Assembly (NCBI RefSeq): GCF_023920705.1
Contig: NZ_CP094657.1
Coordinates: 2,418,001-2,482,000, forward strand
Source: Acinetobacter sp. XS-4
GTDB taxonomy: Bacteria; Pseudomonadota; Gammaproteobacteria; Pseudomonadales; Moraxellaceae
Direction of reading: 5' to 3'
Length of the DNA: 64,000 bases
Shown here: piece after piece, positions 7,797 to 64,000 of the stretch
Numbering within the stretch: the stretch's first letter is position 1
How the letters are laid out: each line of letters opens with the position of its first letter
Notes under the pieces: model-generated
The model's database searches: none
What the model was told of the DNA's origin: nothing
The model's input: the letters and a program-made list of their open reading frames with translations, nothing else
Translations under genes and position numbers: made by a program

Positions 7797-8281
7797 TAAC
7801 CTGCTAATGCTTTTTCAATATCAGCTTCTAATGCCTCTGGTTTGGTCGTAGGAGCATAGCGATTAAGCACAGCGCCATCTTTACCTACCAAAAATTTGGT
7901 AAAGTTCCATTTAATCGTGCTACTGCCTAAAATACCTTTAGCTTCACGTGTTAAATATCTAAAAATCACGTGTGCTTCTGGTCCTTTTACATCTACTTTC
8001 GCAAACATCGGGAATTTCACCCCATAGTTGCGCTGACAGAATGTACCGATTTCTTTATTGTTACCCGGATCTTGCCCCCCAAACTGGTTGCAGGGAAAAC
8101 CTAAAACTTCCAAACCTTGATCTTTATATTTCTCATAAAGTTTTTCAAGACCAGCAAATTGTGGTGTAAAACCACATTTACTTGCAGTATTTACAATTAG
8201 TAAAACTTTACCTTTGTAATCAGCTAATTGCTTAACTTCACCCTCTAACAGTTCAGCTTCAAACTGATAAATATTACTCAT
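7796..8281 (-). CDS. glutathione peroxidase family thiol peroxidase
   Basis: 161-residue GPx-family enzyme that reduces hydrogen peroxide or organic hydroperoxides; most bacterial members use thioredoxin rather than glutathione. Seen: peroxidatic Cys36 in NTASKCGFT (cysteine, not selenocysteine), Gln in [13 protein letters not shown] (residues 61-71) and Trp-Asn in [10 protein letters not shown] (near 125), forming the usual catalytic tetrad; Cys82 (FCQRN) is a possible resolving cysteine. Its start overlaps the msrB stop by four bases (ATGA) and its stop overlaps the araC start. This forms a compact oxidative-stress operon. Confidence 0.93.
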
Positions 8282-8697
8282 GGATAGGTTTCCTCATCAT
8301 TTTTTTCTTGTGATTTCAGTTGTAATGATGCCGAGTTTACACAATAGCGCAAACCAGTCGGCTGTGGTCCATCTTCAAAAACATGCCCTAAATGGGCTTC
8401 GCAATCATGACAAACTATTTCTGTTCTGACCATACCATGCGATAAATCGTCATGTTCTTCAATTGCAGTTGCCTCAATCGGTTTAAAGAAGCTAGGCCAA
8501 CCACAACCACTGTCATATTTAGTATCTGATGAGAACAATTCTGCCCCGCAGCAACGGCAGACATAGGTACCATGTTGCTTAGTATTCCAGTATTGCCCCG
8601 TAAATGCAGCTTCAGTGCCCTTTTGTCGTGTGATCCGATACTCTTCTGGTGATAACTCTCTTTGCCATTCCCGGTCTGTTTTATTGACTTTTCCCAT
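8278..8697 (-). CDS. msrB: peptide-methionine (R)-S-oxide reductase MsrB
   Basis: MsrB repairs R-methionine sulfoxide in proteins using thioredoxin. The 139-residue protein has the two zinc CxxC pairs (C47/C50 in CRCC, C96/C99 in CHDC), catalytic Cys119 in RYCVNSASL and a second Cys65 in SGCGWPSF that can act as resolving cysteine. I place the start at the second ATG (8697): an AAGG element sits eight bases before it but is too close to the ATG three codons upstream. It heads the msrB-gpx-araC-lysE run, and the gpx start codon overlaps its stop. Confidence 0.95.
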
Positions 8698-59913: not shown

Positions 59914-60828
59914 TTATATTCGATGAATTTCTTCAAAAAACCATTCCAGACAGATTTTGACTTTAGGCAAGTTTGTATATTCTGGTCGGCATACCAAATA
60001 ATAAGAAAAAGGTGATGAGAAATGAATTTGAGGAAATAAACGAACCAATCGTCCGGTCTGTATATCTTTTTGCGCCATGACACTACGTGCTAATGCGACA
60101 CCATGTCCTTCCATTGCAGCCTGTAAAACTGCAGATGAACTGTTGATTTGCATACCTCGGCTAATATTGATGTCATCCAAACCCACACTTCTTAACCAAG
60201 ATTGCCACCCTGGAAATTGTTGATGTTTTTCCATAGAAAGGTCATGAATTAAAGTGATATTTTTTAGATCGTTCGGCGTTAAGAGTGATGAATGTTCTTT
60301 TAAAAATGCGGGTGAACATACGGGATAAACCTCTTCATCCATGAGTTTAATAGCTTCTAAACCTTGCCACTGCCCTTGGCCATATCTGACACCCACATCG
60401 ACTTTTTGCTCTAAAAAATCTACGGCTTTAAGGTTAATATCTAAACGAATATCAATATCTGGATATTGTTTTTGAAAGTGGTCAATTCTTGGTAATAACC
60501 ATTTTTCGGCGAATGCAGGACTCACTGCAATATTAAGAACGCCTGATAGAGAATCTTGTTTTAATTTTTCTAAAGCCAAAGTCAGCTTATCAAAACCCGC
60601 CCGAATATCTGGTAAAACTGACTCAGCCAACTCAGTGGCAATAAGCCGATTTTTACCGTTAGTTTGTCGATGAAATAAAGGAAAGCCTAGCCAATCTTCG
60701 AGTGTACGCACCAATTGCCCCACTGCAGCCGGAGTAACATTTAACTCTTTTGCCGCAGCAGAAAAACTTTTATGTCGCGCGCTGGCTTCAAAAGCACGGA
60801 GTGCATTCAAATAAACTGGTGAATTCAT
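59914..60828 (-). CDS. LysR-family regulator (GcvA-like)
   Basis: 304 residues: wHTH in ALRAFEASARHKSFSAAAKELNVTPAAVGQLVRTLEDWLG (range 9-48) of the GcvA subgroup, then effector domain (LNIAVSPAFAEKWLLPRIDHFQKQYPDIDI). It lies upstream of mdcA on the same strand. Its own upstream region has the TTGCATT-c-AATGCAA dyad and a long segment repeated before the SDR gene, so it probably regulates itself and perhaps the SDR-cupin genes rather than mdc. Confidence 0.88.
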   Translation of the reverse strand: MNSPVYLNALRAFEASARHKSFSAAAKELNVTPAAVGQLVRTLEDWLGFPLFHRQTNGKNRLIATELAESVLPDIRAGFDKLTLALEKLKQDSLSGVLNIAVSPAFAEKWLLPRIDHFQKQYPDIDIRLDINLKAVDFLEQKVDVGVRYGQGQWQGLEAIKLMDEEVYPVCSPAFLKEHSSLLTPNDLKNITLIHDLSMEKHQQFPGWQSWLRSVGLDDINISRGMQINSSSAVLQAAMEGHGVALARSVMAQKDIQTGRLVRLFPQIHFSSPFSYYLVCRPEYTNLPKVKICLEWFFEEIHRI

Positions 60829-60831
60829 GGC

Positions 60832-60896
60832 ACTAAAGATTTTCTTTATGAGGTAACGGAAATTATCTCATTTGTACTCGTAAAACTCTATTTCAA
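60832..60896. repeat. direct repeat copy A (upstream of the LysR gene)
   Basis: Begins ACTAAAGATTTTCTTTA (60832-60848), then 13 unlike bases, then ATTATCTCATTTGT (60862-60875), then a looser AAAACTCTATTTC. A second copy with the same order, orientation and spacing (one base shorter) is at 62568-62629. Confidence 0.72.
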
Positions 60897-60901
60897 AATG
60901 C

Positions 60902-60916
60902 TTGCATTCAATGCAA
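60902..60916. promoter_or_regulatory. LysR-type dyad upstream of the GcvA-like gene
   Basis: TTGCATT-C-AATGCAA: perfect 7-bp arms with one central base, with T-N11-A spacing, about 75-90 bases before the start at 60828. Typical recognition-site position for a self-regulating LysR protein. Confidence 0.6.
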
Positions 60917-60933
60917 TTACGATTTTAGTACTT

Positions 60934-61554
60934 TCAAGACTTAGAACTAAATAGCAGCCTCATACTCAAACTAATGAAACCTAAAGCAAAGCTACGTCTA
61001 AGCCATTTCAGTACAGCAGGTTTACCTAATACGTGCTGGCGCATCATTGCTGCAAAAACACCATAAAACATAAAAACCACGAATGTAATTAGCATAAAGA
61101 TCATGCTCAACAACAACATATCCCATGTTGGCGTAGTCGTATCATTTGCAACGAACTGAGGTAAAAAAGCGAGAAAAAATAAAGGCAACTTTGGGTTAAA
61201 TAAATTAATAAATACTGCATAACTCATAATTTTAAAGGCTGAATGCTCGGTATGTTCTTGTTCAAAATGAAATGCTCCTTTGTCTTGAAGCGATAGCCAT
61301 GCCATATATAACAAATAAGCCACACCTAAAAATTTTAAGATGGTAAATACAAAGGTGCTGGTGAGAAATACTAAAGCAAGTCCCAATATTGCAAGCAGCA
61401 TGTGTGGAATAATGCCAAGTGTACAACCAACTGCTGCAATAAGACTGGCTTTTGCCCCACGAGATAAACCTGTTGCAATGGTATAAATTGCCCCGGAACC
61501 CGGTGAAATCACAACAATAAGTGATGTAATGAGAAATTCGATACTAATCTGCAT
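60934..61554 (-). CDS. LysE/RhtB-family exporter
   Basis: 206 residues, about six helices. Seen: LIVVISPGSGAIYTIATGLSRG (family N-terminal motif with GSGA rather than GPNT/GPDF), ILKFLGVAYLLYMAWLSL and INLFNPKLPLFFLAFLPQF. The NPK...FFLAFLPQF segment is characteristic. It is downstream of an AraC gene on the same strand, the same arrangement as at 6.2-7.8 kb. Substrate unknown. Confidence 0.88.
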   Translation of the reverse strand: MQISIEFLITSLIVVISPGSGAIYTIATGLSRGAKASLIAAVGCTLGIIPHMLLAILGLALVFLTSTFVFTILKFLGVAYLLYMAWLSLQDKGAFHFEQEHTEHSAFKIMSYAVFINLFNPKLPLFFLAFLPQFVANDTTTPTWDMLLLSMIFMLITFVVFMFYGVFAAMMRQHVLGKPAVLKWLRRSFALGFISLSMRLLFSSKS

Positions 61555-61633
61555 AAGCCTGCTCCAGACATGGATTTTGGCTGAGTATCACAGAAGCATA
61601 GAGATAGGTCTTGAATAAAATTGCAGAGATCTT

Positions 61634-62449
61634 TTAAGACAAAATTGCTTTTTGATAACGACTTGGCGTAATGCCCAACTGACGTAAAAAAGCTCGTGTT
61701 AGATGGCTTTGATCGGCGAAACCTGCACGCAATGCAGCTTCAATTATGCTATTTCCCTGCTGTAAATAATGGCGTGCATGGCATACTCGTCGTTGCAACA
61801 AATAAGCATGCGGGGTAATTCCAACCTCACGAGAAAAGCTTCTGAGTAATTGGAAACGGCTTAAATCACATAAACCTGCCAACTCGCTCAATGTAACCGT
61901 GTGCTCTGCCATATCATCGAGATATTCTTTAGCACGCTGAACAGACGAGCAACGGGTTGGCTGATAGCGCTCCGATAACATGTGATAGCGACTAGCATGC
62001 ATCAAACTAAAGAGTAGCATTTCCTCCAATGCCACATGCTCAACCACTGGCAAAGCCATTTCTTTGAATAGTTGCAACAGTCGTTGGCTTAAAAGTCCAT
62101 CACGAACCAAAGGATGCAAGATGGCATCAGCACTACGTCCCTCTGCAAGCAATTCTTGCTTTAATATTTCGGGTTGAATATAAATCATTTGCCAAGCGCG
62201 AGGCCCATCAAGCGGAATACCATCATGAATTTCGCCCGGATTTACAATAATGACATCACCTTGGCCAGCTTCAACCTGACCAACCAAACTCCATGAGCGC
62301 TGCGCGCCACGCGTAATCACACCAATCCCAAAATAATCATGCGAATGACGAGGGAATGAATGCTCTGTCAATAATGATATTGCCTCTGTTCCAACTATTG
62401 GAGGACGCAAAGGATCAACCTGATGGATTGGTCTGGACAATGGGAGCAT
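61634..62449 (-). CDS. AraC-family transcriptional regulator
   Basis: 271 residues: N-terminal cupin-type domain (EHSFPRHSHDYFGIGVITRGAQ, DVIIVNPGEIHDGIP) and C-terminal double HTH (LSELAGLCDLSRFQLLRSFSREVGITPHAYLLQRRV, ALRAGFADQSHLTRAFLRQLGITPSRYQ; ranges 165-265). It is of the same type as the AraC protein at 6951-7796 and likewise stands upstream of a LysE gene, so it likely controls efflux. The effector is unknown. Confidence 0.88.
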   Translation of the reverse strand: MLPLSRPIHQVDPLRPPIVGTEAISLLTEHSFPRHSHDYFGIGVITRGAQRSWSLVGQVEAGQGDVIIVNPGEIHDGIPLDGPRAWQMIYIQPEILKQELLAEGRSADAILHPLVRDGLLSQRLLQLFKEMALPVVEHVALEEMLLFSLMHASRYHMLSERYQPTRCSSVQRAKEYLDDMAEHTVTLSELAGLCDLSRFQLLRSFSREVGITPHAYLLQRRVCHARHYLQQGNSIIEAALRAGFADQSHLTRAFLRQLGITPSRYQKAILS

Positions 62450-62709
62450 CCTGACATGACGATGATTTATTCTAGTATTTTTTCATTAAGAGAAAAGAAT
62501 TCTTTTATAGATATTCAAACCAATATGTTATTGCAAGCATCTTTAGCCATTCAAACATGCTTCATCAACTAAAGATTTTCTTTACCGAACAAGCAGATTA
62601 TCTCATTTGTGAATAAAAAACTATATTCCTAAAATAAACCTACATTGATTGCGATACATCAGTTTTATAAGTCAATCAATTTATTTTATTTAGTCTTAAG
62701 GGTATGCAT
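62450..62709. other. divergent promoter region of the AraC and SDR genes
   Basis: 260 AT-rich bases without a gene. It contains repeat copy B listed next, and the ribosome site AAGGG at 62698-62702 of the SDR gene. Confidence 0.6.
62568..62629. repeat. direct repeat copy B (upstream of the SDR gene)
   Basis: ACTAAAGATTTTCTTTA (62568-62584), 12 unlike bases, ATTATCTCATTTGT (62597-62610), then AAAACTATATTCC. It repeats the region before the LysR gene at 60828 in the same orientation, so one regulator may bind both. Confidence 0.72.
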
Positions 62710-63480
62710 ATGAGTAGATTTTCTTTAAAAGTTGCCATCGTTACTGGTGGCGGTTCTGGTATTGGTAAAGAAGTTGCAATTCGCTTGGTTCAAGAAGGCG
62801 CTAATGTTGTAATTGGCGGTCGCGATGAAAATAAATTGCAAAAAGCTGCCCATGAAATAGATCCGACAGGTGAAAAAGTTCGCTACTTTGCTGGTGATAT
62901 AGCCGACCCTGAAACTGCAAAAAATTTAGTAAAAGTAGCATCTGAAACATTTGGCGGTGTTGATATTCTTATCAATAATGCAGGTGTATTTAACCCAAAA
63001 TCTTTCCTTGATATTACTGAAACAGAATACGACTGGTTTTTAGATACCATTTTGAAAGGCAAGTTTTTTATGGCGCAAGCTGCTGCTAAAGCCATGCAAC
63101 AACGTGGAGGCGGCGCAATTGTACAAACAGGTTCGCTTTGGGCATTACAAGCTGTAAAAGCAACCCCTTCTTCTGCTTACTCAGCAGCAAATGCAGGGGT
63201 ACATGCTCTCACTCATAACTTAGCCATTGAATTAGCCGAATCAAATATCCGCATCAATACCGTAGCGCCAGGCGTAGTAGAAACACCTGTTTACAACACG
63301 TTTATGAGCGAAGATCAGGTTAAAGAAGCTTTACCGACTTTTAACTCTTTCCATCCTCTAGGCCGCAATGGTCAACCGGCTGACATTGCCGAAGCGATTT
63401 TATTCCTTGCATCAGCTAATGCCTCTTGGATTACAGGAACTATTCTTCCTGTAGATGGTGGTGTGATGGCTGGTCACTAA
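62710..63480 (+). CDS. short-chain dehydrogenase/reductase
   Basis: About 256 residues, classical SDR. Seen: NAD(P)-binding TGGGSGIGKEVA, NNAG in ILINNAGVF, catalytic Ser in QTGSLWALQAV, the YxxxN-type site (SAYSAANAGVHAL: Tyr with Asn in place of the usual Lys), and PGVVETPVY. The lysine at Tyr+4 seems to be Asn or Ala (YSAANAG), which is odd for a working SDR. Start: ATG at 62710, seven bases after AAGGG, preferred to 62704. A cupin gene follows. Confidence 0.85.
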   Translation: MSRFSLKVAIVTGGGSGIGKEVAIRLVQEGANVVIGGRDENKLQKAAHEIDPTGEKVRYFAGDIADPETAKNLVKVASETFGGVDILINNAGVFNPKSFLDITETEYDWFLDTILKGKFFMAQAAAKAMQQRGGGAIVQTGSLWALQAVKATPSSAYSAANAGVHALTHNLAIELAESNIRINTVAPGVVETPVYNTFMSEDQVKEALPTFNSFHPLGRNGQPADIAEAILFLASANASWITGTILPVDGGVMAGH

Positions 63481-63571: not shown

Positions 63572-64000
63572 ATGTTGATCCATGCCGATTTTTCACAGGC
63601 TGTGATTATCAAACCTGAAGACTATCACTGGGTGCAATCTCCCCGTGGGGAAGTTGATCGCGTCATGCTTGATCGTATTGGTGATGAAGTAGCCCGTGCG
63701 ACTAGTTTAGTGAAATATGCGCCACATACAACTTTCCCTGAACATCGACATCATCATGGTGAAGAAATCCTCGTACTTTCAGGCGTATTTACTGAAAATC
63801 TAAATCAACACTACCCCGCTGGATGGTATTTACGCAGTCCACATCTGTCAGTACATCAACCGTCGAGCAAAGAAGGTACATTGATTTTTGTCAAACTTAT
63901 GCAAATTCCTACGTCAGAAACTCAAACCTTACGAATCAATACCAATGACCCAGCACAATGGCAAGAAATAGGTTCGCGTTTAATTTGCACATTGGTTGAT
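63572..64000 (+). CDS. cupin-domain protein (ChrR-like), 3' end outside the window
   Basis: Open from ATG at 63572, with GGAG eight bases before, to the window edge (143 codons, no stop). Seen: a metal-binding cupin motif HTTFPEHRHHHGEEILVLSGVF and second motif region SVHQPSSKEGTLIFVKL. Similar to the ChrR-type cupins and to anti-oxidant cupin proteins; function unclear. It lies 91 bases after the SDR gene and is probably in the same operon. Confidence 0.8.
   Translation, partial: MLIHADFSQAVIIKPEDYHWVQSPRGEVDRVMLDRIGDEVARATSLVKYAPHTTFPEHRHHHGEEILVLSGVFTENLNQHYPAGWYLRSPHLSVHQPSSKEGTLIFVKLMQIPTSETQTLRINTNDPAQWQEIGSRLICTLVD

Follow-up and report, generated by a model that had tools for sequence, protein, structure and literature searches.

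Two copies of a probable divergent lysR/SDR control region flank a lysE-araC gene pair in Acinetobacter sp. XS-4

In the window analysed here (a 64,000-nucleotide stretch of the Acinetobacter sp. XS-4 genome), a lysE-type exporter gene and an araC-family regulator gene lie between two imperfect copies of a short intergenic sequence. As judged from its letters, this repeat is the divergent control region of a lysR gene and an SDR-family oxidoreductase gene. We consider it probable that an ancestral lysR/SDR control region is now present twice with the accessory lysE-araC pair in between, that its two halves are kept separately by the two copies, and that the arrangement originated by additive recombination. 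The core of this explanation rests on the divergent pairs of relatives, on allele scores and on a fixed 26-bp spacing; the least certain part is the origin by additive recombination of two alleles around the accessory pair. The locus is a naturally occurring example of a bidirectional control region that exists twice, and since single-copy relatives are available for comparison, one can ask which of the two halves is kept by each copy.

The repeat and the genes around it

The lysR gene (59914-60828, minus strand) encodes a GcvA-like LysR-type regulator of 304 amino acids with the Pfam domains HTH_1 and LysR_substrate. Its product scores 317.6 bits against the NCBIfam GcvA subfamily (PRK11139), above the curated cut-off of 288, and its best relative of solved structure is a glycine cleavage activator (PDB 8y6u). 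The regulator shares the sequence subfamily of the GcvA-like proteins and differs in its neighbour genes, which here are an SDR and a ChrR-type cupin. The left copy of the control region (c1, 60832-60924) has a spacer like that of loci without the SDR gene. It is followed by the lysE-type gene (60934-61554, minus strand; 206 amino acids, Pfam LysE) and the araC-family gene (61634-62449, minus strand; 271 amino acids, Pfam AraC_binding and HTH_18), both regarded as accessory. The right copy (c2, 62568-62703) resembles the A. lactucae sequence up to the start of the SDR gene (62704-63480, plus strand; 258 amino acids, Pfam adh_short_C2), the presumed ancestral divergent partner of lysR. Next comes a ChrR-type cupin gene (Pfam Cupin_7) on the plus strand, which occupies 63572-64000 and continues to 64246 beyond the window.

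The initial annotation had described an imperfect direct repeat of about 65 bp, and our comparison bears this out. Positions 60832-60848 and 62568-62584 agree at 17 of 17 bases and positions 60862-60875 and 62597-62610 at 14 of 14, in one order and orientation, with 13 unlike bases between the blocks on the left and 12 on the right. The looser third block was also found in both copies, as TATTTC-AAAAT ending at 60899 on the left and as TATTCCTAAAAT ending at 62635 on the right, the left one being one base shorter. Local alignment of the two intergenic stretches gave a score of 50, whereas the best of 1000 dinucleotide-preserving shuffles reached 31. Searched without mismatches and with 10-16 bases allowed between the blocks, the exact composite pattern has two matches in the 4.17 Mb genome, namely the two repeat copies, and the control, the same pattern read backwards, had 0 matches.

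Each 17-mer contains the perfect dyad TAAAGA-TTT-TCTTTA, termed block B (TAAAGATTTTCTTTA; 60834-60848 in c1, 62570-62584 in c2), which would be the LysR recognition site; AAAG-N5-CTTT recurs upstream of lysR relatives. Block A (ATTATCTCATTTGT) starts 27 bp from block B in c1 (60862-60875) and 26 bp from it in c2 (62597-62610). It contains GATAAT, a -10-like word, and would be the activation site, holding the SDR -35 and the lysR -10 as well. By arithmetic, the lysR -10-like word under this proposed site lies at about 60860-60865 of the minus strand in c1, and the inherited word of the same type in c2, at about 62595-62600 of the minus strand, now faces araC-lysE. Towards the SDR gene, the dyad is followed by a -35-like TTGT in block A and, 17 bp on, by a -10-like word, the third element, which would be the SDR -10. 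The proposed SDR promoter is TTGTGA-17-TAAAAT (62607-62635, plus strand), and relatives have an ATT element at the matching distance. Since a promoter scan gave 2 promoter-like sites against 6.5 in shuffles, the consensus match is no evidence by itself. In c1 the aligned counterpart of this word (60894-60899, plus strand) reads CAAAAT, and the others in the species complex of the window genome read TAAAAT. We propose that c1 serves lysR by autoregulation while its SDR half decays, and that c2 serves the SDR gene, retaining the half which that gene needs; the leftward lysR-type promoter of c2 may now read araC-lysE.

This layout resembles a LysR-type divergent promoter. For LysR-type regulators, the excerpted text of PMC8407307 places the recognition site near -65 and the activation site at -35/-10, with a total length of 50-60 bp, and describes promoters that are divergent and overlap. 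The relatives of our locus likewise have regulator and target back to back, and the predicted layout likewise has its dyad near -65, centred about 65 bp before an SDR transcription start that is guessed from the -10-like word, a second site over -35 and a total length of about 50-60 bp. Two differences are apparent. The LTTR box of that excerpt is T-N11-A, with T-N10-A and T-N9-A also listed, whereas the conserved dyad reads T-N13-A by eye, T-N11-A being common by chance. Secondly, the control region is single in the described promoters and exists twice in the window because lysR and the SDR gene are no longer neighbours there. In the open-licence PMC literature no paper was found on a LysR-SDR-cupin module (Acinetobacter LysR/SDR with cupin or malonate decarboxylase), and for duplicated divergent LysR regions the literature matches listed concerned other promoters only.

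Divergent pairs and the two-block element in relatives

It had also been suggested that lysR and the SDR gene were formerly divergent neighbours with one shared control region, and a comparison across Acinetobacter for strains with the uninterrupted pair had been advised. Such a strain exists. In Acinetobacter lactucae (G124) lysR and SDR are divergent, about 139 bp apart and without lysE-araC between them, and both proteins are 96% identical to those of the window; the genome carries one copy of the exact composite pattern, which is c2-like from the 17-mer rightwards. Locus comparisons that took in matches above 40-45% identity gave three more divergent pairs without lysE-araC (G073, G046 and G161), in which identity over the matching segments is about 48-69% for lysR and 76-85% for SDR. 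Two further loci (L039 and L052), with SDRs 80-81% identical, are directly divergent too, and these six support the suggested former neighbourhood. Regulator and target are divergently transcribed from one intergenic region in G124, G073, G046 and G161, and the pair is split in the window. The lysR and SDR of G046 (L027) each match as two separate pieces, so this module may be broken or incompletely readable. Among 47 named loci outside the complex, an opposite-strand SDR was present in 14 and a cupin in 26 (no more than about 2.3 kb from where lysR starts, at least 45% identity). Apart from the two at 80-81% (L039 and L052), one of the 14 SDRs is 61% identical and the remainder are 45-48% identical; many may therefore be different SDRs.

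The spacing of the two blocks is strikingly constant. Both blocks were found in 54 of the 58 lysR relatives outside the complex, always with a start-to-start distance of 26, when up to 3 mismatches in one block, 2 in the other and distances of 15-36 were allowed; the block patterns were derived from the same sequences that later entered the count, and the 58 include several close relatives. The four relatives without both blocks are L061 and L064 (Pseudoroseomonas), L076 (Bradyrhizobium) and G046, the last of which was left out of an earlier version of the count (54 of 57). A stricter count over a shorter stretch placed both blocks in order in 52 of the 58, all 26 bp apart, with 0.05 per shuffled set. 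The counts leave out a second, 51-52% identical lysR in each of G102 and G171 (L017 and L033). The letters flanking the blocks in relatives are often GC-rich. Of the 54 relatives with both blocks, 43 also have an ATT element on the opposite side, at a distance of 26 bp. Among 61 elements measured, c1 alone, at 27, breaks the 26-bp spacing, which c2 and the five remaining elements of the complex keep. The two spacings of c1 are 27 and 25, keeping the sum at 52, and c1 lacks one base at the SDR-side -10-like word.

The blocks are also better preserved than the letters around them. Between c2 and G124, 31 positions are the same and 0 different inside the blocks, against 89 and 17 outside (Fisher p 0.013). 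Between c1 and G062, which was picked for its exact 17-mer, the figures are 31 and 0 inside and 45 and 19 outside (Fisher p 0.0002); the comparison of c1 with c2 was left out as circular. The 17-mer differs at one base each in G007 and G158 and at two in G085. By sequence comparison, the two-block element is old, and the repeated blocks have the appearance of LysR operators. The element fixed at 26 bp predicts a binding site for the LysR of the LysR-SDR-cupin module and, in the lysR relatives (L036-L082), could define a regulon. The distant consensus, scanned as an exact pattern in 229 class-level genomes, gave no matches; with so strict a pattern and so broad a draw, this result weighs neither way. 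The 26-bp-spaced element is common to Acinetobacter, Pseudomonas, Janthinobacterium, Paraburkholderia and Azospirillum loci, among others (L036-L082).

The mdcA-GNAT site and its accessory genes

The site of the module, between mdcA and a GNAT gene, was surveyed in the 19 genomes of the genus whose mdcA flank is 87% identical or more, the window genome included. The window order (lysR-lysE-araC-SDR) occurs in 1 of the 19, and lysR-SDR-cupin-MFS likewise in one (G124). Four genomes have lysR-cupin-MFS and are SDR-less (A. pittii G007, G062, G085 and G158), four have a cupin remnant and then MFS (G083, G156, G053 and G152), five have an empty site (G145, G004, G100, G054 and G047) and one has lysE-araC alone (G109). 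In the last three (G105, G141 and G161), none of these genes adjoined mdcA in the 14.5 kb examined. The remnant of G083, G156, G053 and G152 occupies about 170-260 bp between mdcA and MFS and is 68-73% identical to the cupin 3' end; the rest of the module is missing there.

The individual genes are scarce in the genus. Of 175 genomes, 16 have a relative of lysR at E<=1e-90 and 2 (own included) have araC at E<=1e-60; the SDR was detected at E<=1e-60 in 4 of 149, the SDR search having used a sample of 149 genomes and the lysR, araC and mdcA-flank searches 175. An order-level search for araC (E<=1e-50) returned 5 of 390 genomes, own included, the other four being 40-48% identical. Among the best 120 of 394 proteins at E<=1e-60, the cluster that contains the window AraC has 9 members, and the next nearest cluster, at 83% identity, has 86.

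The lysE-araC pair of G109 provides a second case. Its lysE-type protein is 82.5% identical to that of the window, and the two pairs are 79.4% identical in DNA, against 93.1% for the mdcA end. On its left the G109 pair has a degenerate, incomplete duplicate of the GNAT 3' end (L083, 8205-8301) and on its other side the intact GNAT; the left flank through this duplicate (8047-8301) is 87% identical over 273 columns to the uninterrupted mdcA-GNAT junction of G054. In both genomes, then, lysE-araC adjoins a partial second copy of local sequence, at different points. The window genome has, in addition, a second SDR and a second AraC-family gene between MFS and GNAT (65609-67471 in extended coordinates; L094, 9610-11472), for which the 18 other stretches in the comparison gave nothing above 45% identity; we regard these as another accessory pair at the same site.

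Origin of the two copies

The sequence to the right of block A distinguishes the two copies. Here c1 scores 36, 31, 26 and 26 against the SDR-less G062, G085, G007 and G158 (reached by 0, 1, 2 and 2 of 300 shuffles) and 21 against G124 (13 of 300). Conversely, c2 scores 110 against G124 (0 of 300) and 24-26 against the four SDR-less genomes (11-20 of 300), and the score between c1 and c2 is 21 (16 of 300). Since c1 is nearer the SDR-less type, c2 is nearer G124 and the likeness of c1 to c2 is weak, the explanation has to involve two alleles or a duplication of much greater age. These scores do not support the initial idea of a lineage-specific duplication of one control region by insertion in the form in which it was put. 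In a tree of the lysR, cupin and MFS locus, the window, G062 and G085 stand apart from G124, G007 and G158 (support 1.000), and a flank tree groups G124 with G007 and G158 (1.000), so the allele types do not follow the flank tree. A gene-by-gene mosaic test of lysR, cupin and MFS found no sharp switch between allele types, and the two-allele reading of c1 therefore rests on about 50 bp. No donor with lysE-araC beside c2 and without lysR was found.

An old duplication with later losses would take lysR-c1-lysE-araC-c2-SDR as ancestral. Recombination of one copy with the other would then have removed lysE-araC from A. lactucae, and the SDR-less type would have lost lysE-araC-c2-SDR, so that c1 and c2 would each have one single-copy type as their orthologue. 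It accounts directly for the likeness of c1 to the SDR-less type and of c2 to the lysR-SDR type, suits the single c2-like copy of G124, and gene loss is common at the site, as the cupin remnants of four genomes illustrate. However, araC is confined to 2 of 175 genomes, G109 has lysE-araC at another point, and the two pairs are too diverged, relative to the mdcA end, for plain descent with the site. We judge this history rather unlikely, a judgement that does not exclude the preferred one, since both it and a fresh insertion share the core of the preferred explanation and differ from it in origin.

A fresh insertion in the lineage of the window, with lysE-araC inserting into a single control region and about 70 bp of it being copied as a target duplication, is simple, and the G109 pair too has a partial local copy on one side and intact sequence, the GNAT 3' end, on the other. 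It is nevertheless improbable, as the part of c1 to the right of block A is closer to G062, and that of c2 closer to G124, than the two copies are to each other, and no transposase is found among the open reading frames of at least 60 amino acids between the copies. That the blocks are generic promoter sequence, their likeness saying nothing of LysR, draws on the GATAAT of block A and the AT-richness of the region and is very improbable given a composite pattern found twice in the genome and never in its reversed control, an alignment score reached in 0 of 1000 shuffles, and a 26-bp spacing fixed in 54 of 58 relatives with often GC-rich flanks.

Under the preferred additive recombination, an SDR-less-type lysR end would have been joined to an A. 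lactucae-type SDR end with lysE-araC between them. A mechanism cannot be named from two cases, and one-sided homologous joining during natural transformation is our guess. In Acinetobacter baylyi, homology-facilitated illegitimate recombination joins one end by homology and the other without it, adding foreign DNA; one-sided homologous joining and added DNA would be common to the two systems, ours being a proposal only. A wider and more tentative suggestion is that lysE-araC is a passenger that has come into the mdcA-GNAT interval on two or more occasions by additive recombination, with an imperfect local copy of some 70-100 bp left behind on each. The entry in the window would have split the LysR region, whose copies then specialised, c1 losing its outward promoter and the 26-bp spacing and c2 keeping the spacing and perhaps placing araC-lysE under LysR.

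A mobile element with target-site duplication was considered and rejected. Such an element would bring its own recombinase or transposase, and the only open reading frames of at least 60 amino acids between the copies are lysE and araC, so neither enzyme is encoded there. A candidate inverted pair of 12 nt, 92% complementary, lies near both ends (60895-60906 and 62532-62543); it is one of three found, and its left arm overlaps c1.
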